A stretch of 38,235 bases of DNA, taken from positions 1 through 38,235 of the forward strand of contig PHDE01000010.1 in assembly GCA_002842505.1 (NCBI GenBank), read 5' to 3'. Shown here in pieces: positions 21,348 through 31,629 of the stretch. The first letter of the stretch is position 1, and each line of letters starts with the position of its first letter. The translations under genes and the position numbers were made by a program. This DNA comes from Bacteroidetes bacterium HGW-Bacteroidetes-3 (GTDB lineage: Bacteria; Bacteroidota; Bacteroidia; Flavobacteriales; Flavobacteriaceae). The notes under the pieces were generated by a model that was not told where the DNA came from, did no database searches, and saw only the letters and a program-made list of their open reading frames with translations.

Positions 21348-23000
21348 TTATTTCCAAAATGCGGCATACAGCGCCACTAAAATTATCATCACGGCAAATG
21401 CGCCAATGTTAAATTCCGGACTTGTTTTGAACAGTGCTTTTGAAAGCGGAATTCCTTTTTCGTCATCTTTTCCTTTATTTTGATTCCAGCTCACAATAGC
21501 AATAACAATCATAGTAAGTATTGCGGTATAACCCATTTGGTCTAAGAAAGGAACATCAACAAATAATGAGCTTGTGGACCATCCTTTAGGCGCCACTTTA
21601 AAATACATCGCAATTGGTATGGAAACCAAAGCCCCAACAATTGCAGCTTTGTTGGTCGTTTTTTTCCAGAACAATCCCAAAATAAATATGGCCAAAATTC
21701 CCGGACTCACAACGCCCGTATATTCTTGAATAAATTGAAAAGCTTGGTCAATGCCACCCAATAAAGGTGCCATAACACAAGCAATTGCCAAAGCAGCACC
21801 TGCAGAAATTCTTCCCATATTTACGGTACTTTTATCACTCGCATTTTTGTTGATGTACTGTTTGTAAATATCCATCGTAAAAATGGTTGACGTTGAGTTC
21901 AACATAGAAGCCAAAGACGATACAATTGCCGCGGCCAAAGCTGCAAAAGCAACTCCTTTTAATCCGGTAGGCAAAAATTGCAACAACCAAGGATACGCTT
22001 TATCCGCTTGTTCCAAGGTTGGTAAATTTTTAAGTCCGGCTGCACCCAAACGCGCCATAATTTCGGGATCGTTCACCATCACATAAGCTGCAATACCAGG
22101 AACCACCACAATTAATGGAATCACCAATTTTAATCCGGCCGCTAATAAAATCCCTTTTTGGGCTTCTTTCAACGATTTGGCAGCCAATGTTCTTTGAATA
22201 ATATACTGATTGAAACCCCAATAATATAAATTCGCAACCCACATACCACCTAGCAATACGCCAATTCCCGGTAACATTTTATAATAAGTGCTAGATTCAT
22301 CAAAAATCATTATAAATCTTTCGGGAGCCGCTTCATATACAGTTTTAATACCTGCCCATACGCCTTGTCCGTCCGAAACCATATTTAAAGCCAGATAAGT
22401 GGTTACCAAGCCTCCCAACACTAAAAACACAACTTGAATTACATCTGTCCAAGCCACTGCTGAAAGTCCGCCATACAAAGAATAAGCCGCCGCAAACAGC
22501 GCCAATCCGATAACGCCATAAACCATAGGAATTCCCATAATGGTTTCTAAAGCCAAAGATCCCAAATATAAAACCGAAGTTAAATTCACAAACACATAAA
22601 GTGCAATCCAGAATACGGCTAAAATGGTTTTTAAGTTGGTTGAAAATCGTTTTTCAACAAATTCGGGAATGGTGTACAATCCTTTTTCGATAAAAATAGG
22701 CAGAAAGAATTTTCCCACAATAATTAAAGTGATGGCCGCCATCCATTCATAAGAAGCAATTGCCAAACCCAAAGCAAAACCGGAACCCGACATCCCAATA
22801 AACTGTTCTGCAGAAATGTTTGCGGCAATTAATGAGGCTCCAATGGCCCACCAAGGCAATGATTTGCTTGCCAAAAAGTAATCTTCGGCAGTTTTTTGAT
22901 GTCCTTTTTTGTCTCTGGAAACCCATAAACCTACTCCCAAAATTAATACAGCATACGCTATAAAAACGAAATAATCCCAAAATCCGAAATGTGCAGTCAT
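21348..23000 (-). CDS. Sodium/solute symporter (SSS family, SGLT-like)
   Basis: 550 aa with about 13-14 hydrophobic helices. The N-terminal region carries the SSS signature (KTAEDYFLASKSLPWWAIGASLIAAN, then ISAEQFIGMSGSGFALGLAI), closest in pattern to sugar-transporting SGLT-type members. SAVAWTDVIQVVFLVLGGLV and SSLASMLNSTSTIFTMDIY are the other conserved SSS segments; the latter includes the serine/threonine cluster of the Na2 site. It should import a small organic solute, possibly a sugar, across the inner membrane with Na+. The substrate is inferred only from family resemblance. Upstream lie a 76-aa ORF and a palindromic operator candidate, which suggests substrate-dependent control. Confidence 0.93.
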   Translation of the reverse strand: MTAHFGFWDYFVFIAYAVLILGVGLWVSRDKKGHQKTAEDYFLASKSLPWWAIGASLIAANISAEQFIGMSGSGFALGLAIASYEWMAAITLIIVGKFFLPIFIEKGLYTIPEFVEKRFSTNLKTILAVFWIALYVFVNLTSVLYLGSLALETIMGIPMVYGVIGLALFAAAYSLYGGLSAVAWTDVIQVVFLVLGGLVTTYLALNMVSDGQGVWAGIKTVYEAAPERFIMIFDESSTYYKMLPGIGVLLGGMWVANLYYWGFNQYIIQRTLAAKSLKEAQKGILLAAGLKLVIPLIVVVPGIAAYVMVNDPEIMARLGAAGLKNLPTLEQADKAYPWLLQFLPTGLKGVAFAALAAAIVSSLASMLNSTSTIFTMDIYKQYINKNASDKSTVNMGRISAGAALAIACVMAPLLGGIDQAFQFIQEYTGVVSPGILAIFILGLFWKKTTNKAAIVGALVSIPIAMYFKVAPKGWSTSSLFVDVPFLDQMGYTAILTMIVIAIVSWNQNKGKDDEKGIPLSKALFKTSPEFNIGAFAVMIILVALYAAFWK

Positions 23001-23017
23001 AATATTCTATATAGTAT

Positions 23018-23248
23018 TTAATTATTGATTCTTATTGAAATTTCTTTTGGCATAGCTTCAAAATTTTTGCTGAAAACATTAGAACGATTTACAGCCTCAT
23101 TTTTTTGAATTAAAACGATTTTTTTGTCGATTGCGGCAAATAAAACAGAACCATCGTAATTATAGGTATATTCTCCAAAAAGGATAATTTTTTTTGGAGA
23201 TTCTATATTTACAACGTTTTCGGAGCTGATAAAATTAATTTGCTTCAT
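23018..23248 (-). CDS. Small ORF of unknown function upstream of the symporter
   Basis: 76 aa, ending 17 bp before the symporter start. No signal peptide, no membrane segment and no motif that I recognise. The middle (KKIILFGEYTYNYDGSVLFA) looks like a small beta-hairpin protein rather than random translation. It may be a real short cytoplasmic protein, or the remnant of a longer gene. Its position between a strong operator candidate and the transporter supports cotranscription. Confidence 0.5.
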   Translation of the reverse strand: MKQINFISSENVVNIESPKKIILFGEYTYNYDGSVLFAAIDKKIVLIQKNEAVNRSNVFSKNFEAMPKEISIRINN

Positions 23249-23281
23249 TAAAAGGTCTAAATTATTTAGCCATTTTATTAA

Positions 23282-23301
23282 TTAGTACGCTAACATACTA
23301 A
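23282..23301. promoter_or_regulatory. Inverted-repeat operator candidate upstream of the symporter unit
   Basis: TTAGTACGCTAACATACTAA: arms TTAGTACG and CATACTAA are inverted copies with one mismatch and a 4-bp spacer. It lies 34 bp upstream of the 76-aa ORF, where a repressor or activator dimer would act on the minus-strand promoter. No regulator gene is adjacent. Confidence 0.5.
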
Positions 23302-23483
23302 ATTTATCGTTAACAAATGCCCTATTTTAATATGGAATTTATAAAATAAAAGGTCAAAATTTTCAATTTGATATTTTTGGCCAAAATTTCAACTAATAAG
23401 CCTCCAATTTTAAATAGATTTAAAACAATATTTTTTACAGGGAAGTAAAAAAAGACATTCATAAATAAAATAATTTTAACCAG

Positions 23484-23577
23484 CCCTTAGCACATTTGCA
23501 AAACCGCACAAGACAACCCACTCTCAAAGTTTTGTAAAAGAGCCAGCTCCCCCAAGTTCCAACAAGATGTTGAAAAG
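23484..23577. repeat. GC-richer element at the left edge of the accessory region
   Basis: A block running from CAGCCCTTAGCACATTTGC through AACCGCACAAGACAACCC and CTCCCCCAAGTTCCAAC stands out from the AT-rich DNA around it (23249-23480 and 23578-23620). I recall similar sequence as a dispersed repeat in other Bacteroidota genomes but cannot verify this. No ORF. The rest of the 381-bp gap holds the symporter operator and the XRE promoter. Confidence 0.4.
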
Positions 23578-23589
23578 AGATTGAATTAA

Positions 23590-23636
23590 TTGTTAAAAAT
23601 CAAATTTCTTTTTCTATTTTTGACACTAAATGTCAA
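23590..23636 (+). promoter_or_regulatory. Promoter and overlapping palindromic operator of the XRE-led operon
   Basis: A TTG at 23590-23592 and an exact -7 box TATTTTTG at 23615-23622 (22-bp spacing) predict a start site near 23629. Overlapping the end of the -7 box and the start site is TTGACACTAAATGTCAA (23620-23636), a perfect 6-bp inverted repeat. A direct copy of ATGTCAACA follows at 23645-23653. This is the layout expected for autoregulation by the XRE protein encoded next. Confidence 0.65.
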
Positions 23637-23644
23637 CACATGTT

Positions 23645-23956
23645 ATGTCAACAGAAACAGTAGGCGAAAAGCTAAGACAACTAAGAGAGCGAAATGAAAT
23701 GCCTTTACGAAAGGTTGCTGCATTAATTGACATTGATGTAGCAATTTTAAGCAAAATGGAGCGTGGAGAAAGAAAACTTACTAAAGAGGTAGTTTTGAAA
23801 CTTGCAGACATTTATAAATACAGTGCCGACGATCTTTTAATATCATTTCTCAGCGATAAGATAATGTATGAAATTCAGAACGAGGATCTTGGAGAAAAAG
23901 CATTGAAAGTGGCGGAGCAAAGAGTAAAATATTTAAAAGCGAATAAGAAGAAATGA
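23645..23956 (+). CDS. XRE-family helix-turn-helix regulator
   Basis: 103 aa from the ATG at 23645. An in-frame ATG at 23630 would be at or beyond the predicted transcription start and inside the operator, so I prefer the second. Residues about 4-58 are an HTH_3 domain: GEKLRQLRERNEMPLRKVAA, IDIDVAILSKMERGERKLT (recognition helix) and VVLKLADIYKYSADDLL. A Lys-rich helical tail follows. It resembles small controllers found beside restriction-modification and defence genes. Its stop overlaps the next start by 4 bp (ATGA), so it heads the operon and most likely represses it through the palindrome at 23620-23636. Confidence 0.9.
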   Translation: MSTETVGEKLRQLRERNEMPLRKVAALIDIDVAILSKMERGERKLTKEVVLKLADIYKYSADDLLISFLSDKIMYEIQNEDLGEKALKVAEQRVKYLKANKKK

Positions 23957-24141
23957 CTATAGCAGAATTAGAAAAAATGTGGAATGAATTTTCTGACACT
24001 CCAATCAATATTGAAGATGAAACAGAAGAAGATTTCTATTGGTGGGAAAAAGGAACTTATCGCTTTGATATTTGGCATTGGTTTGATGAAAAATCACCTA
24101 AAGGTATTGCTTATCTAATTCAGAAAATTAAAATAACATAG
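23953..24141 (+). CDS. 62-aa protein of unknown function, second gene of the candidate defence operon
   Basis: Overlaps the regulator stop by 4 bp and ends 1 bp before the next start, so it is almost certainly translated. It is acidic at first (NIEDETEEDFYWWEKG), then has YRFDIWHWFDEKSPKGIAYL. The WHWFDEK..KG...L pattern is one I associate, without being able to check, with small proteins that accompany XRE regulators. No membrane segment, signal peptide or catalytic motif. It could be an antitoxin-like or structural partner; function unknown. Confidence 0.8.
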   Translation: MTIAELEKMWNEFSDTPINIEDETEEDFYWWEKGTYRFDIWHWFDEKSPKGIAYLIQKIKIT

Positions 24142-24142
24142 C

Positions 24143-25993
24143 GTGGCTTTACCTATAAACATAAACGAGCTGTTGCATGGGAATACGATTGAATGGGATC
24201 GTATTGAATTGAAAAAAGGATGGAATCCTGAAGATATTATTCATTCACTTTGTGCTTATGCCAACGATATTAATAATTGGGATGGCGGATATATAATTAT
24301 TGGGATTGAAGAAGGAAATGGAATGGCTAAACTTCCACCTTTTGGATTAAATCCGGAACAGATAGATTCATTGCAAAAGAGATTAATTGAATTGACGTAT
24401 AAAATATCACCAAATTATGTCCCTGTTTCACAACCTTATATTAAAAACGGGAAACATATATTGATTATCTGGGCTCCGGCAGGTGATAATCGTCCTTACA
24501 AAGCACCCGTTAGCCTTAGTGGGAAGAAATCGGAAAAGGCATGGTATATTAAACGGGGATCTAAAACCATTAAAGTTAAAGAAGGTTCAGATGATGAAAG
24601 AAGATTGCTTGAACTTACAGCTCGCATCCCTTTTGATGACAGGATAAACCAACAAGCAACACTTGATGATTTAAGTTTACGTTTGATTCAGGAACATCTT
24701 AAAGAATTAATGAGTCCCTTATATGATGAAAGCACAAAGATGTCTTTTTCAGATTTATGCAAACAAATGAAAATTGCAAAGGGCCCCGACGAATTTCTAA
24801 GACCGACAAATGCAGGGTTACTGATGTTTAATGAACACCCCGAGCAATTTTTTACCGGTGCCAAAATAGAACTTGTTATCCACAAAGGAAACGTTGGTAA
24901 AAATTACACAGAAAAAATATTTACAGGCTCACTTGTCAATCAGGTAAGAGCTATTTTGAATTTTATTAAAACCAATATTATTCAGGAACAAGTTTCTAAA
25001 GCCCCCGAACAGGCAGAAGCAGTCAGGTTTTTTAACTATCCTTATCAGGCCATTGAAGAAGCGTTGGTTAATGCTGTTTATCACAAAAGTTACGAACGTG
25101 AGAATCCGGTTGAAATACAGATCCATCCCAATAAAATTGAAATATTGAGTTTCCCTGGGCCAATGCCTCCTATTGATAAGGAAATGCTTAAAAAGGAAAG
25201 AGTGGTTGCAAGAGAATACAGAAACCGAAAATTGGGCGGTTTCTTAAAAGAACTGAAATTAACTGAAGGCAGAGGAACCGGGTTGCCCATCATTCATAGC
25301 AGTCTTGAGGTTAACGGCTCACCGCCTCCACTATTTGAAACCGATGATGACAGGAATTATTTTCTTTGCACGCTACCCATTCACCCGCTTTCTAAAATCA
25401 TCTTAGGTCAGGAAGATGACCTAAGTAGAGCCAAAGATAATATTATGGTATTCAAATTCTTAGGTGACATAAATTCTTATCTTAGTCTCTCTGTCTCCGA
25501 AATTGGAGACAGAGACAGAGCGTCTATTAGAGAGAAAATCAACCCAACAATTCAAACGTTGATAAAGTATTGTGTAGAACCAAAATCAAGGGATGAGATC
25601 TTTGGGCAAATAGGACTTTATAAAAACACCAAAAATTTTCAAAACCATATAAAACCGCTTATTGATGCTGGCTGGTTGTATTACTCACTACCAAACAAAC
25701 TTACGAGTAGAGATCAAAAATATTACACCACTGAATTGGGTAAAAAATTGCTCGCGATAATCTCAATAGAAAGTAATTCAGGAATTAAAAGAATTTCTGT
25801 AGCGTCCTCAAGTATTGCCTCAATTGGCTACGATGCCAAAAATAAGATACTGGAGATAGAATTTCACCACGGAGCGGTTTATCAATATTTTGATGTTCCG
25901 AAAGAAGTGTATGACGGATTGATGGGAGCAGGTTCAATGGGAAGTTTCTTTATGAATGAAATTAAGACTAAATTTAGCAACCAAAAACTTTAA
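24143..25993 (+). CDS. AlbA_2 / GHKL-type ATPase protein with C-terminal KTSC domain
   Basis: 616 aa starting at GTG, 1 bp after the previous stop. Residues about 15-150 match AlbA_2 (Schlafen-like) domains: IEWDRIELKKG, then SLCAYANDINNWDGGYIIIG. Residues about 300-400 match HATPase_c_4: QAIEEALVNAVYHKSYE with the ATP-site Glu and Asn near 305-310, then KLGGFLKELKLTEGRGTGLP. A winged-helix-like region follows at about 450-545. The last part, about 550-612, is a KTSC domain (SSSIASIGYDAKNKILEIEF, with the YQY motif), about 60% identical to the next gene's product. COG2865-type AlbA_2/ATPase proteins are usually called regulators or RecG-like; a C-terminal KTSC domain is an arrangement I do not know. 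KTSC function is unproven, with RNA binding suggested. Confidence 0.85.
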   Translation: MALPININELLHGNTIEWDRIELKKGWNPEDIIHSLCAYANDINNWDGGYIIIGIEEGNGMAKLPPFGLNPEQIDSLQKRLIELTYKISPNYVPVSQPYIKNGKHILIIWAPAGDNRPYKAPVSLSGKKSEKAWYIKRGSKTIKVKEGSDDERRLLELTARIPFDDRINQQATLDDLSLRLIQEHLKELMSPLYDESTKMSFSDLCKQMKIAKGPDEFLRPTNAGLLMFNEHPEQFFTGAKIELVIHKGNVGKNYTEKIFTGSLVNQVRAILNFIKTNIIQEQVSKAPEQAEAVRFFNYPYQAIEEALVNAVYHKSYERENPVEIQIHPNKIEILSFPGPMPPIDKEMLKKERVVAREYRNRKLGGFLKELKLTEGRGTGLPIIHSSLEVNGSPPPLFETDDDRNYFLCTLPIHPLSKIILGQEDDLSRAKDNIMVFKFLGDINSYLSLSVSEIGDRDRASIREKINPTIQTLIKYCVEPKSRDEIFGQIGLYKNTKNFQNHIKPLIDAGWLYYSLPNKLTSRDQKYYTTELGKKLLAIISIESNSGIKRISVASSSIASIGYDAKNKILEIEFHHGAVYQYFDVPKEVYDGLMGAGSMGSFFMNEIKTKFSNQKL

Positions 25994-25997
25994 CATT

Positions 25998-26210
25998 ATG
26001 AAAAGACAATCAGTAGAATCCTCAAACCTTGCATCAATTGGATATGATGCAGCAAACGAAATTCTTGAAGTGGAATTTAATCACGGTGGCGTTTATCAAT
26101 ATTTTGACGTTCCTGAAAATGTTTATGAAGAATTGATGAATGCTGACTCACATGGTCAATATTTTGATAGAAATATTAAAAAGGCAGGATATGAGTTTCA
26201 AAAAATTTAA
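25998..26210 (+). CDS. Stand-alone KTSC-domain protein
   Basis: 70 aa from the ATG at 25998, 4 bp after the previous stop. An upstream in-frame ATG at 25956 would overlap the preceding gene and add an unrelated tail. The whole protein is one KTSC domain (PF13619): SSNLASIGYDAANEILEVEF, VYQYFDVP with the central YxY motif, then VYEELMNADSHGQYF. It is clearly paralogous to the C-terminus of the upstream 616-aa protein, at both protein and DNA level. The domain was named for the C-terminus of some lysyl-tRNA synthetases. The function is unknown. Confidence 0.88.
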   Translation: MKRQSVESSNLASIGYDAANEILEVEFNHGGVYQYFDVPENVYEELMNADSHGQYFDRNIKKAGYEFQKI

Positions 26211-26212
26211 TA

Positions 26213-26437
26213 ATGGAAAGATATATAAATTCAGGTGGTAATTCAGGCGTTTCCGCTTATGAAATAGGTACTGATTATATAATTGTTGTATTTATTGGAA
26301 AACCAAAGGCTTATAAATACAGCTATGGTGGAGGTGCTGGTAGTTATCACGTAGAAAATTTGAAAAAACTTGCAAAAAATGGTAGTGGTTTGAATGCTTA
26401 CATTAATAAACACGTTAAAAATCTGTATGATAAATAA
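26213..26437 (+). CDS. Third small KTSC-like protein
   Basis: 74 aa, 2 bp after the KTSC gene. GVSAYEIGTDYIIVVFIGKP is followed by KAYKYSYGG, which keeps a YxY motif after two strands as in KTSC. It then has VENLKKLAKNGSGLNAYINK, a helix with the LA..G.GLN.YI pattern. It is more distant from the two neighbours than they are from each other, so the relation rests on the strand-strand-YxY-helix order and on synteny. Role unknown. Confidence 0.75.
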   Translation: MERYINSGGNSGVSAYEIGTDYIIVVFIGKPKAYKYSYGGGAGSYHVENLKKLAKNGSGLNAYINKHVKNLYDK

Positions 26438-26447
26438 CTAAATTTAT

Positions 26448-28355
26448 ATGTATATAGAGAATATCATCATTTTAAATTATCGAAGTTGTAAGATCCTTGA
26501 TTTGGAATTATCAAAGGATAGTCCTAACGTTTTTATTGGCCTCAATGATTCAGGTAAATCAACTGTTTTACAAGCACTTGATTTACTATTAGGCACAAAA
26601 CCAAAATTTAGTTCTTTTGGAGAGGGTAGTTACAAAAGTGACATATCCAATTCTTTAGTAAGCATTGAGGCGTTAAATAAAATATTGAAAAACAAAGAAT
26701 TACCATTATTTGATTTTGGTAACGATTCTACTTTAATAATTGGGAAATTGATGTATGATGAAAAAGAGGCAGAAATTTATAATGATTTAAATCTCTCTAC
26801 TGCTTTAAAATGGTCTCTTGAATGTAATATAAATAATACACTATGGCTAGCAAAAAGATATCACAATAATAAAAGTCAAATGTATCTCCTCTCATTAGAA
26901 ACTGAAAATCCTTTAGAATTGTGGAATGCCAATCAAACAGACTTAAATAAACGAATTAAGGAATTTAATGTATCACCTAAAGACATTGAAAATGAAAATG
27001 GAAAGGGCAGATTTTCAAATTTTGAAAAGATAAGAGCTCTTTATGAAAAATCAGATTGTTCTTTAAAATGGACAGATTATGTTTATGCTAAAAATGACAA
27101 AGACGTATTCCCGTCATTTAACTTATTTGACTGGAATACTTCACTAGATGAAATAATATCAACAGCTAATGCTATAATGCAAGAAGAAATTAATGACCAT
27201 ATAACACCCCTTAAGAAATTAGCAGTTGATTCAGCAAAGAAAGCAGAAGACGCTATTAATAAAAAATTTGGCGAAATAAGTTTAATAATCAAAGAAGTCG
27301 CAAAGGAAGTCGAAGGTATTAGTTCGAAAGTTTATTTTGATGTAAAAGAAAAAATTTCGGATATAATGGTAACAAAAACTCATAGTGATGGACCAATTCA
27401 TTTAGAAAATCAAGGTGAAGGCTTAAAGCGTCAAATATGGTTTTCATTAATAAAAGTAAAAGCAAATACAGATAAGGAAGGATCGAAAAAATTTATTTGG
27501 GCATTTGATGAGCCTGAAACTCATTTATATCCTGGAGCTCAAAGAGAATTTTTTGATATTCTGAATAAGCTTTCTTTAGGTAATGTAGAAACAATTATTA
27601 GCACACATTCTACTATTTTTATCGATAAATCCAACTTGAATAAAATAAATAGTGTTAAGCAAGAAAATAATGGTTATACAGAAATTAATTTTTGTAAAGA
27701 TATTGATTCCATATTCTTATCATTAAATATTAAAAACAGCGATTTTCTTTTTTATGATAAATTTTTAGTTGTCGAAGGAGATACGGAACAATATTTAATG
27801 CCAAGGCTTTACGAATTATATACTGGAAATACTTTATTAGCTGATAATGTACAATTACTTAATATTCAAGGTAAAAACAAGTGGCACGAGAATAAGAAAA
27901 TAATAGATAAAATCTTGGGAGATTTTAAAAAATCAGAAGAACAGGTATTTTATTTATTTGACAACGATATGAGTTTCGAAATAGGGAAAGCTGCAATTAC
28001 CGAAAATATGTTTTTTGTCGGTGAGCAAGATATTGAAGATTCAATAAGTGATGATATTTGGATAAATATACTTAATGAGTATTATCAAGGGGTACTAGAA
28101 TTTAGTTCAGAGGAAATTAGTAATTGGAAAAAAGCTGTTGTCAAAAACACTAAATGTAATGATTACGAAAAGTTTTATCCAATACTTAAAAAGGGAATAA
28201 AAACAAAATGTAATGAAGATAAAATTGAATATGATACACTTTTGAGAATACCATCAAAGGGAGCTGAATCAGCAAATTTTCTAAAGAGGCATATAAAATC
28301 TAAAGATGATATTCCGAAGAAAATAAAAGAAGCATTTGATAAATTAAGAATATAA
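26448..28355 (+). CDS. OLD-family nuclease: AAA/ABC-type ATPase with TOPRIM domain
   Basis: 635 aa. The N-terminal ATPase starts IENIIILNYRSCKILDLEL, with Walker A GLNDSGKST (31-39). The middle (about 70-320) is a helical insertion. The signature-like ENQGEGLKRQIWFSLI, Walker B FIWAFDEPETHLYPG (Asp354, Glu355) and ETIISTHST (switch His) follow. The C-terminal TOPRIM domain has FLVVEGDTEQYLMPRL (Glu443) and FYLFDNDMS (Asp505, Asp507). Both active sites therefore look intact. OLD-family proteins are ATP-regulated endonucleases; relatives include P2 OLD and GajA of Gabija. There is no UvrD-like GajB here; the next gene is a different nuclease. It starts 10 bp after the previous gene and ends 1 bp before the next. 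It is more AT-rich than the core genes around the island. Confidence 0.9.
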   Translation: MYIENIIILNYRSCKILDLELSKDSPNVFIGLNDSGKSTVLQALDLLLGTKPKFSSFGEGSYKSDISNSLVSIEALNKILKNKELPLFDFGNDSTLIIGKLMYDEKEAEIYNDLNLSTALKWSLECNINNTLWLAKRYHNNKSQMYLLSLETENPLELWNANQTDLNKRIKEFNVSPKDIENENGKGRFSNFEKIRALYEKSDCSLKWTDYVYAKNDKDVFPSFNLFDWNTSLDEIISTANAIMQEEINDHITPLKKLAVDSAKKAEDAINKKFGEISLIIKEVAKEVEGISSKVYFDVKEKISDIMVTKTHSDGPIHLENQGEGLKRQIWFSLIKVKANTDKEGSKKFIWAFDEPETHLYPGAQREFFDILNKLSLGNVETIISTHSTIFIDKSNLNKINSVKQENNGYTEINFCKDIDSIFLSLNIKNSDFLFYDKFLVVEGDTEQYLMPRLYELYTGNTLLADNVQLLNIQGKNKWHENKKIIDKILGDFKKSEEQVFYLFDNDMSFEIGKAAITENMFFVGEQDIEDSISDDIWINILNEYYQGVLEFSSEEISNWKKAVVKNTKCNDYEKFYPILKKGIKTKCNEDKIEYDTLLRIPSKGAESANFLKRHIKSKDDIPKKIKEAFDKLRI

Positions 28356-28356
28356 T

Positions 28357-29388
28357 ATGTCAACAATAAAAATAAACCAACAACTCAAACGCATTGAAAT
28401 AAAAGAGTTTGAAATCGAAAACCAAATCGTTTTTAATTATTTTGACAATCTACCCGCAAGTGAGCGTGATGAAAAACTGCTTCGTGCCATTTACATTGGT
28501 GTTTTGGCATTGATGGAAGATAGAATTTCTTCATTCCTTTCAAAAACGTCAAATGAGTTAGGAACAGAACTAGAAAGCTTGAAGATGATTTTTGAAATGA
28601 AGAAAGAGCTTTTTTATAAGTCAACCATTAAAGGAATATTGGCGGAAGATGAAATCGCCGCGTTCTTAAATCAATATTTTTTAGACAAAAAATTAAAAGA
28701 TCGTGCTTTCCTTACTGGAAATACCGCAGGGAATATTCCCAAAAATAAGACAGGCGACATCATTTGTGAAATAAATGGAACGCCTGATTTAAAAATTGCC
28801 ATTGAATGTAAATTTGATAAAAGCGTTCGTTTAGGAGACATTGAAAGCAAAGATATTTTTACCCGTAAATCTGATACAGCTTGGAGTCAGTTAATAGAAA
28901 CACAAGCAAATAGAGATGGAAAAGTAAGTTTAATTGTATTTGATATTTCGTTGGTGGAAATCTCTATCCTAAAGAATTTTGAAAACGTGGGCTACATTCC
29001 GGGAGTTGGTTTTATTGCCATTATAAATTCTCAAAAAGGAGATTACAGTAATTTAGCCATTGCGTATATGTTGGCGCGAGATATTGCATTAAACGCGAAA
29101 GAAATTGAATTGGACAAAGATGTTTTGGCGATGATGGTCAACAGAATTATTAAAGACATCAATGAAGTTCTTTCCATAAAGTCGTTGGTTTTAAATAACA
29201 TTGACAACAACAAAGCAATTTTGAAACAACTTGAGAAATCGGTTCTTTTAATGGAATTTAACCAAGAATATTTAAAACGCTTTTTAAGTCAGGGAACGCT
29301 AACCAAAAAAGACTTGCTCGACTTTTATACAGGGGAAGACGTCAAAGACAAATATCGTTTAATTGAAAAGGAAATAAATGAATTATAG
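28357..29388 (+). CDS. Putative PD-(D/E)XK nuclease, partner of the OLD-family protein
   Basis: 343 aa, starting 1 bp after the OLD-family gene. Residues 1-110 are helical, with a probable coiled coil (FLSKTSNELGTELESLKMIF). KGILAEDEIAAFLNQYF is followed by the putative active site: Asp134 in KTGDIICEI and Glu150-x-Lys152 in KIAIECKFD, with 15 residues between Asp and Glu. This is the classical D-(X)n-ExK arrangement of restriction-endonuclease-like folds. A Trp-x-Gln (AWSQL) and an IVFDIS strand follow, then a helical C-terminus (about 250-343). I do not recognise the exact family. No terminator is evident after it. It closes the seven-gene unit. Confidence 0.82.
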   Translation: MSTIKINQQLKRIEIKEFEIENQIVFNYFDNLPASERDEKLLRAIYIGVLALMEDRISSFLSKTSNELGTELESLKMIFEMKKELFYKSTIKGILAEDEIAAFLNQYFLDKKLKDRAFLTGNTAGNIPKNKTGDIICEINGTPDLKIAIECKFDKSVRLGDIESKDIFTRKSDTAWSQLIETQANRDGKVSLIVFDISLVEISILKNFENVGYIPGVGFIAIINSQKGDYSNLAIAYMLARDIALNAKEIELDKDVLAMMVNRIIKDINEVLSIKSLVLNNIDNNKAILKQLEKSVLLMEFNQEYLKRFLSQGTLTKKDLLDFYTGEDVKDKYRLIEKEINEL

Positions 29389-29568
29389 GCCTTTTTTCAA
29401 TGAATGCTCCTTCCATTTCAAATTCAACGCTTCAATTTTTTTCTGCTAACACAATCGTTACGCTTGTGCACACAAACCATAACCGCCAGCGCAAATTTGC
29501 AATTACAAATCTTCGTAAGAAATTAAACATCCACAAAATCACACAAAATATAATGTTAATCGTATTCC

Positions 29569-29576
29569 ATAATTTT
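29569..29576 (+). promoter_or_regulatory. Possible -7 box upstream of the nickel/cobalt-transporter remnant
   Basis: TAATTTTG fits TAnnTTTG. It lies about 75 bp before the first ATG of the remnant gene. No -33 element. Position accurate to a base or two. Confidence 0.35.
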
Positions 29577-29650
29577 GTATTTTTAGTCGTGTTCAATTCT
29601 TTAACCAAATAGCGTTAACTTTTCCTTTAATTGCCGGCATTATTGCCGCG

Positions 29651-30082
29651 ATGTTGCACGTAATCTCTGGCTCCGATCATTTGGCGGCGGTAACGCCTTT
29701 TGCCATTGAAAGCAAAAAGAAAGCCTGGAAAGTAGGACTTTTTTGGGGGATTGGACATTTGTCGGGAATGCTTTCCATTGGCGTTTTGTTTTTGATGCTT
29801 AAAGATTTGATTCCCATTGAAAAAATCTCAATGCACAGCGAAAAAATGGTGAGCATTATTTTAATTGGTTTGGCTTTGTGGATTTTCTTTAAAATTTTTA
29901 GGGATGAAAAACAACACAAACATACCCACATCCACGTTGAAGGATTTCCAATAATTCACGAACATCCGCACGTTCACGATGAGGTTAACCCAATAATTAA
30001 GAAAAATCCGCACATTCGCTATGAAGTTAGTGAAATAATCAGGAAACATCCCCACATTCACCAAACTCAGGACAGGCTATGA
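29651..30082 (+). pseudogene. Truncated nickel/cobalt-transporter-like (UreH/NiCoT-type) membrane protein
   Basis: 143 aa from the first ATG. The frame is open upstream without an ATG, and those residues (QIALTFPLIAGIIAA) look like the missing first half of helix 1, so the true start may be lost or atypical. The metal-site motif H-x5-DH (HVISGSDHLAAVTPFAIES) is present, then a helix pair (WGIGHLSGMLSIGVLFLML; MVSIILIGLALWIFFKIF) and a His-rich loop. That loop is three near-identical 14-residue units (42-bp DNA repeats at 29927, 29969 and 30011). The second membrane half expected after the loop is absent: the frame stops at 30080-30082, inside a 62-bp repeat. I read it as a broken gene; a short functional metal-binding protein is possible. 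Confidence 0.6.
29927..30062 (+). repeat. Three 42-bp tandem repeats coding a His-rich loop
   Basis: Units start at 29927, 29969 and 30011, with ten bases of a fourth unit at 30053. Each encodes 14 residues (for example HVEGFPIIHEHP plus two). The His content falls from unit 1 to unit 3, so the units are diverging. Confidence 0.85.
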
Positions 30083-30265
30083 GACTCTTATCTCTCTAGT
30101 GCAGAATAAACTTCTCGTCTCTCCGCCTTTTATTTTTCAATTAAATTTATTCCATAAAAAAAGCTCCTCGTTTCCGAAAAGCTTTTCTGTGCGGCCCCTT
30201 CATCAAACTCAGGACAGGCTATGAGAATCTTATCTCTCTAATGCAGAATAAACTTCTCGTCTCTC
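30062..30265. repeat. 62-bp direct repeat pair next to the island repeat
   Basis: The segment starting CAAACTCAGGACAGGCTATG and ending CTTCTCGTCTCTC occurs at 30062-30123 and 30204-30265, 142 bp apart, with two mismatches. Weaker similarity continues for about 40 bp further in both. The first copy supplies the stop codon of the truncated transporter. Confidence 0.85.
30144..30194. repeat. 51-bp direct repeat, distal copy (att-like)
   Basis: Identical over 51 bp to 31502-31552. It contains the last five bases of tRNA-Leu (as GCGG plus the discriminator) and the whole tRNA terminator, but no tRNA gene. It could be the distal attachment site of a small integrated element, or a simple duplication. 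Confidence 0.7.
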
Positions 30266-30313
30266 TACCTTTTATATTTTAAATCCAAATTTCTTTCATA
30301 AAAAAAGCCATTC

Positions 30314-31150
30314 TTATTCTTTTAATTTTTTGTTTTTATTGTCTAATATTTTTTTTGCTGAAATGGGACTCACCACTTTTTTGCCTGTTTTTTCTTCAAT
30401 TTCTTTTCGGGTATTACCGGCAATAGTGCCGCCTTGATTTGCAATTACTTTATTTTGCTGAAATGTTTTTGGCTGTTTTTCTTTACTTATTTCGGTAGTG
30501 GTTACTTCGGCAAGCATATTGAGCACCAATTCTAAGTTGGTCATATTATCTCTTAAATTTTCTTTTTTTAGATCCTTGTGTTTTTTATATGCTTTTACTG
30601 ATAAGCCACTCCAGGCTTTGGTAATTTCATCGGTAAGTATGGCATATTCCTGTCCTTTTTTCACTCCACGTTCATCCCATTCATCGGTTAGTTCTTTGCG
30701 AACCTCAATGCTTTTCAGCCTTTGGTTAATCCATTCTTTGCTATAACCTTTTTTAAGATAGGTTTCCATCAAACGGTCAATCCCAATTTCCGGGTCTTCT
30801 ATTTCATCTATTCTTTCTTTTGCTACTTTTGCTATCCACAATTTAAAGGGTTCGGCTTTGGGCGATGGAACACTTTGAATTAATCGAAATAATTGTTCTG
30901 TATCTGCCACATCTGTTTTATAAAACTTTCCATCGCGAGATTGTAATTTCAGTTGGTTACAATTTGTAACCAACTCACTTCCCTCCTTTTTTAATCTGGA
31001 TTTCAACACTTTCCAATAATTATTGGGATTGGGGCTATCTGTAAGTATTCCTACCACATCTACTACCGAAAAATACCATTTTTCGGATGCATCATTCCAG
31101 GTACTTCGTACTTGCTTTTGCTCAAATAATTTAATAGATGTTTTTTCCAT
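30314..31150 (-). CDS. BRO-N domain (phage antirepressor-like) protein
   Basis: 278 aa. Residues about 5-110 match the BRO-N/antirepressor pattern: IKLFEQKQVRSTWNDASEKW, YFSVVDVVGILTDSPNPNNYW, and FYKTDVADTEQLFRLIQSVP, followed by AEPFKLWIAKVAKERIDEIE. The rest (about 130-278) is helical and highly charged, with a Lys-rich C-terminus. Members of this family bind DNA and are found in phages, prophages and as single genes in Bacteroidota genomes; some are linked to SOS-type responses. Here it is the only gene between the 51-bp repeats. The target is unknown. Confidence 0.87.
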   Translation of the reverse strand: MEKTSIKLFEQKQVRSTWNDASEKWYFSVVDVVGILTDSPNPNNYWKVLKSRLKKEGSELVTNCNQLKLQSRDGKFYKTDVADTEQLFRLIQSVPSPKAEPFKLWIAKVAKERIDEIEDPEIGIDRLMETYLKKGYSKEWINQRLKSIEVRKELTDEWDERGVKKGQEYAILTDEITKAWSGLSVKAYKKHKDLKKENLRDNMTNLELVLNMLAEVTTTEISKEKQPKTFQQNKVIANQGGTIAGNTRKEIEEKTGKKVVSPISAKKILDNKNKKLKE

Positions 31151-31501
31151 TACAATTTCTTTTTTATTTGGTAAAAATCTCGAGTGACTTTCATTTCTTC
31201 CTTTTTTTGATCTTTATAAAAGTACGCAAGGATTTTATTTGTTCCTTTATCGGCATTTGTTTACCAGAATATAGCAATATTTTTTGTTTTGATTTGCCAA
31301 ACTATGTCAAATATAAGTATTATTTACCAAAATGTCTTGAGGTAAAGTGGCTGGATTTTTCTATATATTTGAAAATAATTTTTTCAATCACCTCATCTAA
31401 AAACACCAATAATCCAATATTCTAAAATACAAGTAACCAGTTGGCAGTTTTAATAAAAATTAATGTTTAAGAATACAAATTCAAACTTCCGCTAAAATTC
31501 T
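31151..31501. other. AT-rich spacer between the BRO-N gene and the tRNA-Leu terminator
   Basis: No convincing gene. The region upstream of the BRO-N gene must hold its promoter, but no exact TAnnTTTG box was found on the minus strand. The short plus-strand frames here have no recognisable protein character. Confidence 0.4.
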
Positions 31502-31552
31502 AATTTATTCCATAAAAAAAGCTCCTCGTTTCCGAAAAGCTTTTCTGTGCGG
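31502..31552. repeat. 51-bp direct repeat, proximal copy at tRNA-Leu 3' end
   Basis: Covers the final five bases of tRNA-Leu and the 46 bp after it, including the terminator. Perfect match to 30144-30194. See the distal copy and the bounded element. Confidence 0.8.
31514..31545 (-). terminator. Terminator of tRNA-Leu
   Basis: On the minus strand, AAAAGCT pairs with AGCTTTT across a GC-containing loop, followed by a seven-base T-tract. It starts three bases past the mature tRNA 3' end. Confidence 0.75.
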
Positions 31553-31629
31553 GCGGAGAGACTCGAACTCTCAAACCTCGCGGCACCAGATCCTAAGTCT
31601 GGCGTGTCTACCAATTTCACCACGCCCGC
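31548..31629 (-). tRNA. tRNA-Leu (anticodon UAG)
   Basis: 82 nt with a long class II variable arm (TGCCGCGAGGTTT). Acceptor GCGGGCG / CGCCCGC is perfect. The anticodon stem CCAGA/TCTGG encloses loop CTTAGGA (anticodon TAG, reads CUA). The T arm GAGAG-TTCGAGT-CTCTC is intact and the discriminator is A. CCA is not encoded. A canonical promoter lies just upstream and a terminator just downstream, so it is a single-gene unit. Confidence 0.95.

Follow-up and report, generated by a model that had tools for sequence, protein, structure and literature searches.

The window analysed here – 38,235 nucleotides of Bacteroidetes bacterium HGW-Bacteroidetes-3 (Flavobacteriaceae; contig PHDE01000010.1, positions 1 to 38,235) – carries seven consecutive genes on its + strand, P1-P7, which a preliminary description had put forward as a candidate undescribed defence system. 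Comparison with other loci containing the last gene, P7, which codes for a predicted nuclease, gives a different picture. P7 is paired with many unrelated anti-phage genes, here called cores. Rather than a single fixed system, the operon therefore looks like one version of an immune module into which different parts can be plugged.

The operon and its flanks

The seven genes are tightly packed, with intergenic gaps of -4, 1, 4, 2, 10 and 1 bp, and the coordinates and spacing first proposed for them are borne out by analysis of the open reading frames (ORFs). P1 (23630-23956; 108 amino acids, aa) is an XRE regulator matching Pfam HTH_3 (5.1e-11). A perfect inverted repeat, TTGACA-N5-TGTCAA (23620-23636), spans its start and is probably its operator; similar repeats, judged by eye, precede the same XRE gene in three other P7 loci (L018, L019 and L023), an arrangement that fits an operator, and P1 probably represses the operon. 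An XRE-family match is present in seven further loci among the 88 P7 loci described below. P2 (23953-24141; 62 aa) matches phrog_24588 (3.7e-13) and no Pfam or NCBIfam family, and its relatives precede the AlbA gene in L018, L024 and L028. P3 (24143-25993; 616 aa, GTG start) combines SLFN_AlbA_2 (Schlafen-type), HATPase_c_4 and a C-terminal KTSC domain; with relatives upstream of P7 in L018, L019, L024, L028 and L066, it is an exchangeable front gene, probably with a regulatory role.

Two small genes follow. P4 (25998-26210; 70 aa, with its start placed at the second ATG of an 84-aa ORF) is a stand-alone KTSC protein (KTSC, 1.2e-28). P5 (26213-26437; 74 aa) matches phrog_17428 (4.5e-17) and no Pfam family, shows only weak profile similarity to KTSC (E 3e-4, probability 40%, 66 columns), and belongs to a family of 21 rows. 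P5-like sequences also occur in five phage records (H22-H26), three of them annotated as virion structural protein. P6 (26448-28355; 635 aa) is the core of this operon, an OLD-type protein with AAA_15 (8.9e-37) and OLD-like_TOPRIM (7.5e-10) matches, for which the best PADLOC model is Old (2.5e-37), with the GajA models starting from 9.2e-28. Its motifs lie at residues 31, 353, 441 and 505, which we take to be Walker A (31), Walker B-like (353) and TOPRIM (441 and 505). P7 (28357-29388; 343 aa), a nuclease-like protein of PD-(D/E)XK type, is the last gene. The domains originally assigned to P1, P3, P4 and P6 were thus recovered (HTH_3; SLFN_AlbA_2, HATPase_c_4 and KTSC; KTSC; OLD), that of P5 by the weak profile match only.

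A tRNA-Leu gene (31547-31629) and a BRO-N gene on the - strand (30314-31150; PADLOC candidate PDC-S13, 1.7e-137) lie nearby, as had been described, both outside the operon. G269, a genome from the same genus, has the tRNA-Leu region and the symporter that flanks the operon on the left on one contig, about 22 kb apart; the interval between them holds other genes, including copper-transport-like proteins by eye, and no match to the profile models. The region from the symporter to tRNA-Leu (approximately 23000-31500 of the window) is a variable locus between conserved flanks. At 23018-23248 (- strand) lies a remnant-like ORF of 76 aa resembling the start of a galactokinase, and in G269 an intact 375-aa galactokinase adjoins the symporter at the same place; the operon region thus seems to have replaced or cut the galactokinase gene.

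P7 and the genes upstream of it

Peptide patterns from the window P7 were used to scan 84,980 species genomes, giving 112 P7 relatives of which the best 80 were kept. With the window itself, one viral and one plasmid locus, and loci from three family and two phylum genomes, these make up the 88 P7 loci; 92 had been fetched, and L012, L015, L016 and L017 were dropped because they came from the same genomes as others. The 80 kept loci lean towards window-like P7, so the exchange of cores is shown for this close family. The loci are mostly from Bacteroidota, together with one alphaproteobacterial branch of nine rows (including L095 from a Planctomycetota bin) in which all are SIR2-HerA where the contig is long enough; other phyla contribute single loci, which for the most part come from metagenome bins and may be there through mis-binning. 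Within the family 8 of 299 genomes carry P7, the window's included, the other seven being 73-92% identical. Of 395 phylum genomes sampled, 4 match P7, one match being a 33-residue fragment, and two further full-length loci come from this sample; all ten loci from these two samples have a core. The P7 of a Paracoccus plasmid is 62% identical and follows KTSC, HerA and SIR2 genes, with no OLD. P7 is not a phage gene by its occurrence: there are no matches in 50,697 phage records, one in viral contigs and one in 72,556 plasmid records.

Neither Pfam, NCBIfam nor PADLOC (PADLOC-DB release of 2023) has a family that the window P7 matches above cut-off, and 49 P7 members give few and weak PADLOC matches (best 0.0038). 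PADLOC recognizes P6 and the BRO-N protein in this region and leaves P7, with no family for the window copy, as a named part of none of its systems. Nevertheless, ten residues are identical in all 85 rows of the P7 alignment, among them E97, G133-D134, E150-C-K152 and W176-x-Q178, and 15 of 49 members have a Pfam PDDEXK_15 match (best 2.4e-6). On this conserved D...ExK signature P7 is of PD-(D/E)XK type and a predicted nuclease; the original assignment holds through the invariant residues and the PDDEXK_15 matches of relatives, and not through a match of the window copy itself. Nothing useful came from searching PDB sequences with P7 or its alignment, or PHROGs with P7, and P7 has no RmuC match. 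A diverged DUF2130 origin was rejected, the two profiles failing to align (probability 0.1%; both alignments are thin, leaving room for a distant link), as was a P7-KTSC fusion in four alphaproteobacterial loci, where the longer P7 ORFs are an overlapping frame and KTSC is a separate gene in another frame.

A recognized core lies within 9 kb upstream of P7 in 84 of the 88 loci, using profile models built in this analysis. SIR2 with HerA is the most frequent (37 loci), followed by OLD (17), RloC/PrrC-like AAA_13 (14), SMC15 (5) and PDC-S46 (3); SMC114 and OLD with a reverse transcriptase occur twice each and HerA alone once. Double cores are SIR2-HerA followed by OLD (two loci) or by SMC15 (one), and in L044, L049 and L052 a SIR2-HerA-KTSC core and then a second core share one P7. 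Genes downstream of P7 in these same three loci are Wadjet-like (DUF3375, SbcC-like ATPase and JetD domains). Representatives of the core families match HerA (3.1e-162), SIR2 (4.5e-144), Old (4.7e-67), PDC-S46 (1.5e-255) and reverse transcriptase group UG39 (1e-173), and the RloC/PrrC-like representative matches PDC-S06 (2.6e-120) and AAA_13 (9.8e-93); the Lamassu-like SMC cores match LmuB at 3.8e-16 for SMC114 and only 1.2e-4 for SMC15. P7 starts a median of 2 bp after the nearest recognized gene (85 gaps, range -35 to 84).

Some loci depart from these patterns in detail. The UG39 reverse transcriptase adjoins OLD in L076 and L084; in L019 the SIR2 and HerA matches are in pieces, and in L040 the HerA match is partial and the gene before P7 codes for a PIN-KTSC protein. 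The four loci with no recognized core are L028, where AlbA and KTSC stand directly before P7, L085, which has an AbiA-like gene that is outside the profile-model set, L095, at a contig end, and L065. Three paralogous genes of 754-800 aa lie upstream of P7 in the last of these. In eight of the 88 loci the cassette sits in a type I restriction setting, between HsdM-HsdS upstream and HsdR downstream. A 596-aa GmrSD_N-type protein (the domain being shown for L084) is encoded between P7 and HsdR in the type I operons of L084, L013 and L072.

Small genes of four families (KTSC, the P5 family, a 96-aa family and an 82-aa family) accompany P7 in most loci, 78 of the 88 having one or more. A WYL match is given by Pfam for the 82-aa family (8.2e-10) and by profile comparison for the 96-aa family (E 3.4e-8, probability 95%). 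Every one of the 37 loci whose only core is SIR2-HerA has a KTSC gene, sited between HerA and P7; in ATPase-core loci the small genes precede the core. KTSC is also joined in one ORF to HerA (L041 and L050), to PIN (L040) and to AlbA (P3), which hints at contact between KTSC and the proteins to which it is joined. The small KTSC and WYL proteins probably tune or tether the core.

Exchange of cores and comparison with known systems

DNA comparisons show cores being replaced beside a P7 that stays. Between the window and L018, L024 and L066, the front genes match at 72-74% or 71-89% over blocks and P7 at 73-88%, with no DNA match across the core. L020 and L023 are alike over 4.7 kb of methylase genes (88%) and over P7 (92%), yet one has a SIR2-HerA core and the other AAA_13. 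Across 2131 different-core pairs with a P7 match, DNA homology starts a median of 9 bp from the P7 start, and 155 such pairs (53 loci) also have a common block of at least 200 bp upstream of the core, although pairs of loci are non-independent and in two-core loci the common block may be the other core. Separately, in L059 and L061 two allelic types of SIR2-HerA-KTSC are swapped between homologous flanks.

The same seven genes are common to the window and only one other of the 88 loci, L018, and the OLD protein of L018 is distant from that of the window (no DNA match; 2e-12). The seven genes do therefore co-occur elsewhere, yet what is conserved is P7 plus a variable core: in other loci the front genes, the small genes and the core are exchanged while P7 stays behind. 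The idea of a fixed seven-gene system was accordingly dropped. The defensive role first suggested for the operon is, in contrast, well supported by homology, because the genes that take the place of OLD match known or candidate anti-phage families and the region is variable between conserved flanks.

P7 also evolves more slowly than its partners and is hardly adapted to the core. In the 30 loci with SIR2, HerA, KTSC and P7, mean pairwise identity is 0.75 for P7 as against 0.51 for HerA, 0.44 for SIR2 and 0.53 for KTSC. When SIR2-HerA was compared with ATPase cores (70 of the 85 rows, omitting nine of the alphaproteobacterial branch and six with other cores), only 3 of 343 P7 columns exceeded the 95% permutation limit, two of them at the start codon, with 16 columns singly at p < 0.01; it is this scarcity of core-specific columns that indicates how little P7 adapts.

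The nearest idea in print is that of nuclease-protease pairs, recurrently acquired by AVAST, Lamassu, Hachiman and DRT (PMC12799240), in which, as with P7, one gene unit is acquired by several unrelated antiviral systems. These pairs, however, consist of an MBL nuclease and a trypsin-like or caspase protease, whereas P7 belongs to the PD-(D/E)XK type and remains in place as cores are swapped; the seven proteins contain no MBL, trypsin-like or caspase Pfam domain, and the operon is not such a pair. The P7 loci resemble SIR2-HerA (Nezha) in that the nearest core match is HerA-family in 38 of 88, with KTSC in between. HerA with a KTSC protein and an endoDNase is mentioned as an unpublished observation in PMC9503650; compared with what is said there, the P7 loci have sirtuin and P7 together, and the same P7 also stands behind cores unrelated to HerA.

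The core of the window, an OLD ABC ATPase with TOPRIM, resembles those of the OLD systems (single OLD, Gabija and retron OLD) as set out in PMC10568477, and P6 has the ABC ATPase and TOPRIM of Gabija GajA. Among the seven proteins there is no UvrD-like GajB domain and no reverse transcriptase (an msr-msd RNA was not searched for), so neither Gabija nor a retron with an OLD effector was retained; the partner of OLD here is P7 with KTSC-type small genes, unlike in either. PARIS was also rejected, AriA and AriB being separate genes whereas P6 has TOPRIM and ATPase in one protein; single-gene PARIS fusions are reported, leaving room for a distant link to P6. PrrC lies inside a type I restriction operon as a restriction guardian (PMC12707154). 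The type I setting of eight P7 loci and the occurrence of AAA_13 cores recall this arrangement; the window differs in having no restriction genes. P7 is not known from PrrC systems. Shield (ShdA, with an RmuC domain; PMC10270631) likewise combines a constant DNA-degrading nuclease with variable accessory genes, but P7 does not match RmuC and its cores are defence families in their own right.

Possible roles of P7

We propose that P7 is the component of a modular anti-phage locus that stays constant and acts on DNA, and that it triggers whichever core is plugged in, a reading to which we give a probability of about 0.45. P7 would cut or process foreign DNA, and the DNA ends or structures that it makes would activate the core present; the core, an executioner with its own ATPase or translocase, would then abort the infection through DNA or tRNA cleavage or loss of nicotinamide adenine dinucleotide (NAD). 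In the window, P7 would act on invading DNA and the OLD protein P6 would then fire. The simplest role for a constant DNA-acting enzyme that is unadapted to its partner is that of a trigger common to such cores. The more general version, in which P7 serves as a universal trigger by converting invading DNA into a uniform signal, with unrelated executioners plugging in and P7 itself unadapted, is possible but less likely than not. Defence, core exchange and the constancy of P7 are each much more certain than the order of events.

Several observations weigh against the trigger proposal. The order with P7 first and the core second is one that we infer, and HerA, AbiA and PIN cores are not known to recognize DNA ends. 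The core families are named from representatives, by homology alone. The structure model of P7 is moderate (predicted local distance difference test 77.6, predicted template modelling score 0.48), and Foldseek finds nothing for it at E 0.001; the weak matches (E 0.07-1, template modelling score ~0.1-0.2) include many PD-(D/E)XK enzymes, with unrelated folds mixed in, and among them are McrC, MspJI, Bax1, EcoRV and Can2. A quick P7 tree (85 rows, 11 core labels) requires 36 core changes, compared with a shuffled mean of 43.1 and a minimum of 10. So many changes count in favour of exchange, but core labels are clustered beyond chance, though loosely (0 of 200 shuffles as low); the well-supported branches alone force far fewer changes, 3 for SIR2-HerA, 5 for OLD and 5 for RloC.

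Cores also occur apart from P7. A HerA query matches in 23 of the 299 family genomes, with P7 alongside only in G083, and in the window's own genome (G000) a 33% HerA match lies on a different contig from P7; HerA being mostly without P7, not every core needs it. Three SIR2-HerA loci that lack P7 (L139, L140 and L143) encode a DUF2130 protein after the small gene, at the place of P7 (gaps of about 296, 0 and 38 bp), an observation in favour of the modular reading; a fourth such locus has a DUF6236 protein after its small gene. DUF2130 may thus be a second nuclease-like partner that uses the P7 slot; a literature search combining DUF2130 with defence returned no paper naming it among the matches listed. 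OLD genes close to P6 (65%) have P7 downstream of them in G285 and G231, and in G144, a genome without P7, the OLD gene is split (pieces of 71% and 65%) and lies beside IS21-like genes.

The main rival to the trigger reading is a plain second effector acting downstream: the core would sense infection through its ATPase and release P7, which would degrade DNA. Conserved active-site residues in P7, an ATPase or translocase in most cores, and the commonness of nuclease partners in ATPase-nuclease defence pairs (PMC12799240) would all fit. The main core families, however, each already have an effector domain (TOPRIM, SIR2 or the anticodon-nuclease-type AAA_13), which leaves no obvious need for a second, constant one, and the near lack of core-class residues in P7 would be odd for a subunit gated by unrelated partners; we regard this role as possible, though on the unlikely side. 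Its position as the tightly coupled last gene alongside many toxic cores would also suit a brake or self-protection factor that repairs or clears accidental DNA damage, or keeps the core inactive. DNA nucleases of this class (RmuC/PD-(D/E)XK) can take part in DNA maintenance. Many genomes, however, have SIR2-HerA and other cores with no P7, and P7 itself is neither antitoxin-sized nor fast-evolving, which makes such a brake improbable.

An exchange factor resembling a homing enzyme, which would aid cassette swaps and have no part in defence, is very improbable. It would explain why DNA homology starts at P7 with cores swapping beside it, and why P7 is so widely transferred, but P7, the last gene of the unit, is coupled to the core in translation (by the 2-bp median gap) and is in no listed homing-enzyme family, and the tandem cores with one P7 (L044, L049 and L052) fit function as well as exchange.

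In the literature, with subscription papers mostly beyond reach, we found no description of one nuclease common to these cores. A single, strongly conserved nuclease-like protein follows at least five unrelated core families, each of which has been treated as a defence system of its own. Messenger-based systems are known to have interchangeable effectors behind one sensor, and in CBASS the signal is a nucleotide messenger. If P7 is indeed a universal trigger, these loci would represent a constant-sensor, variable-executioner form of immunity in which the signal is a DNA structure. The natural loci with the same flanks and different cores make the question of P7 directly testable. If P7 is needed by these cores, tools that name systems by their core genes miss a common partner, and the triggers of these systems may be common and approachable through one protein.

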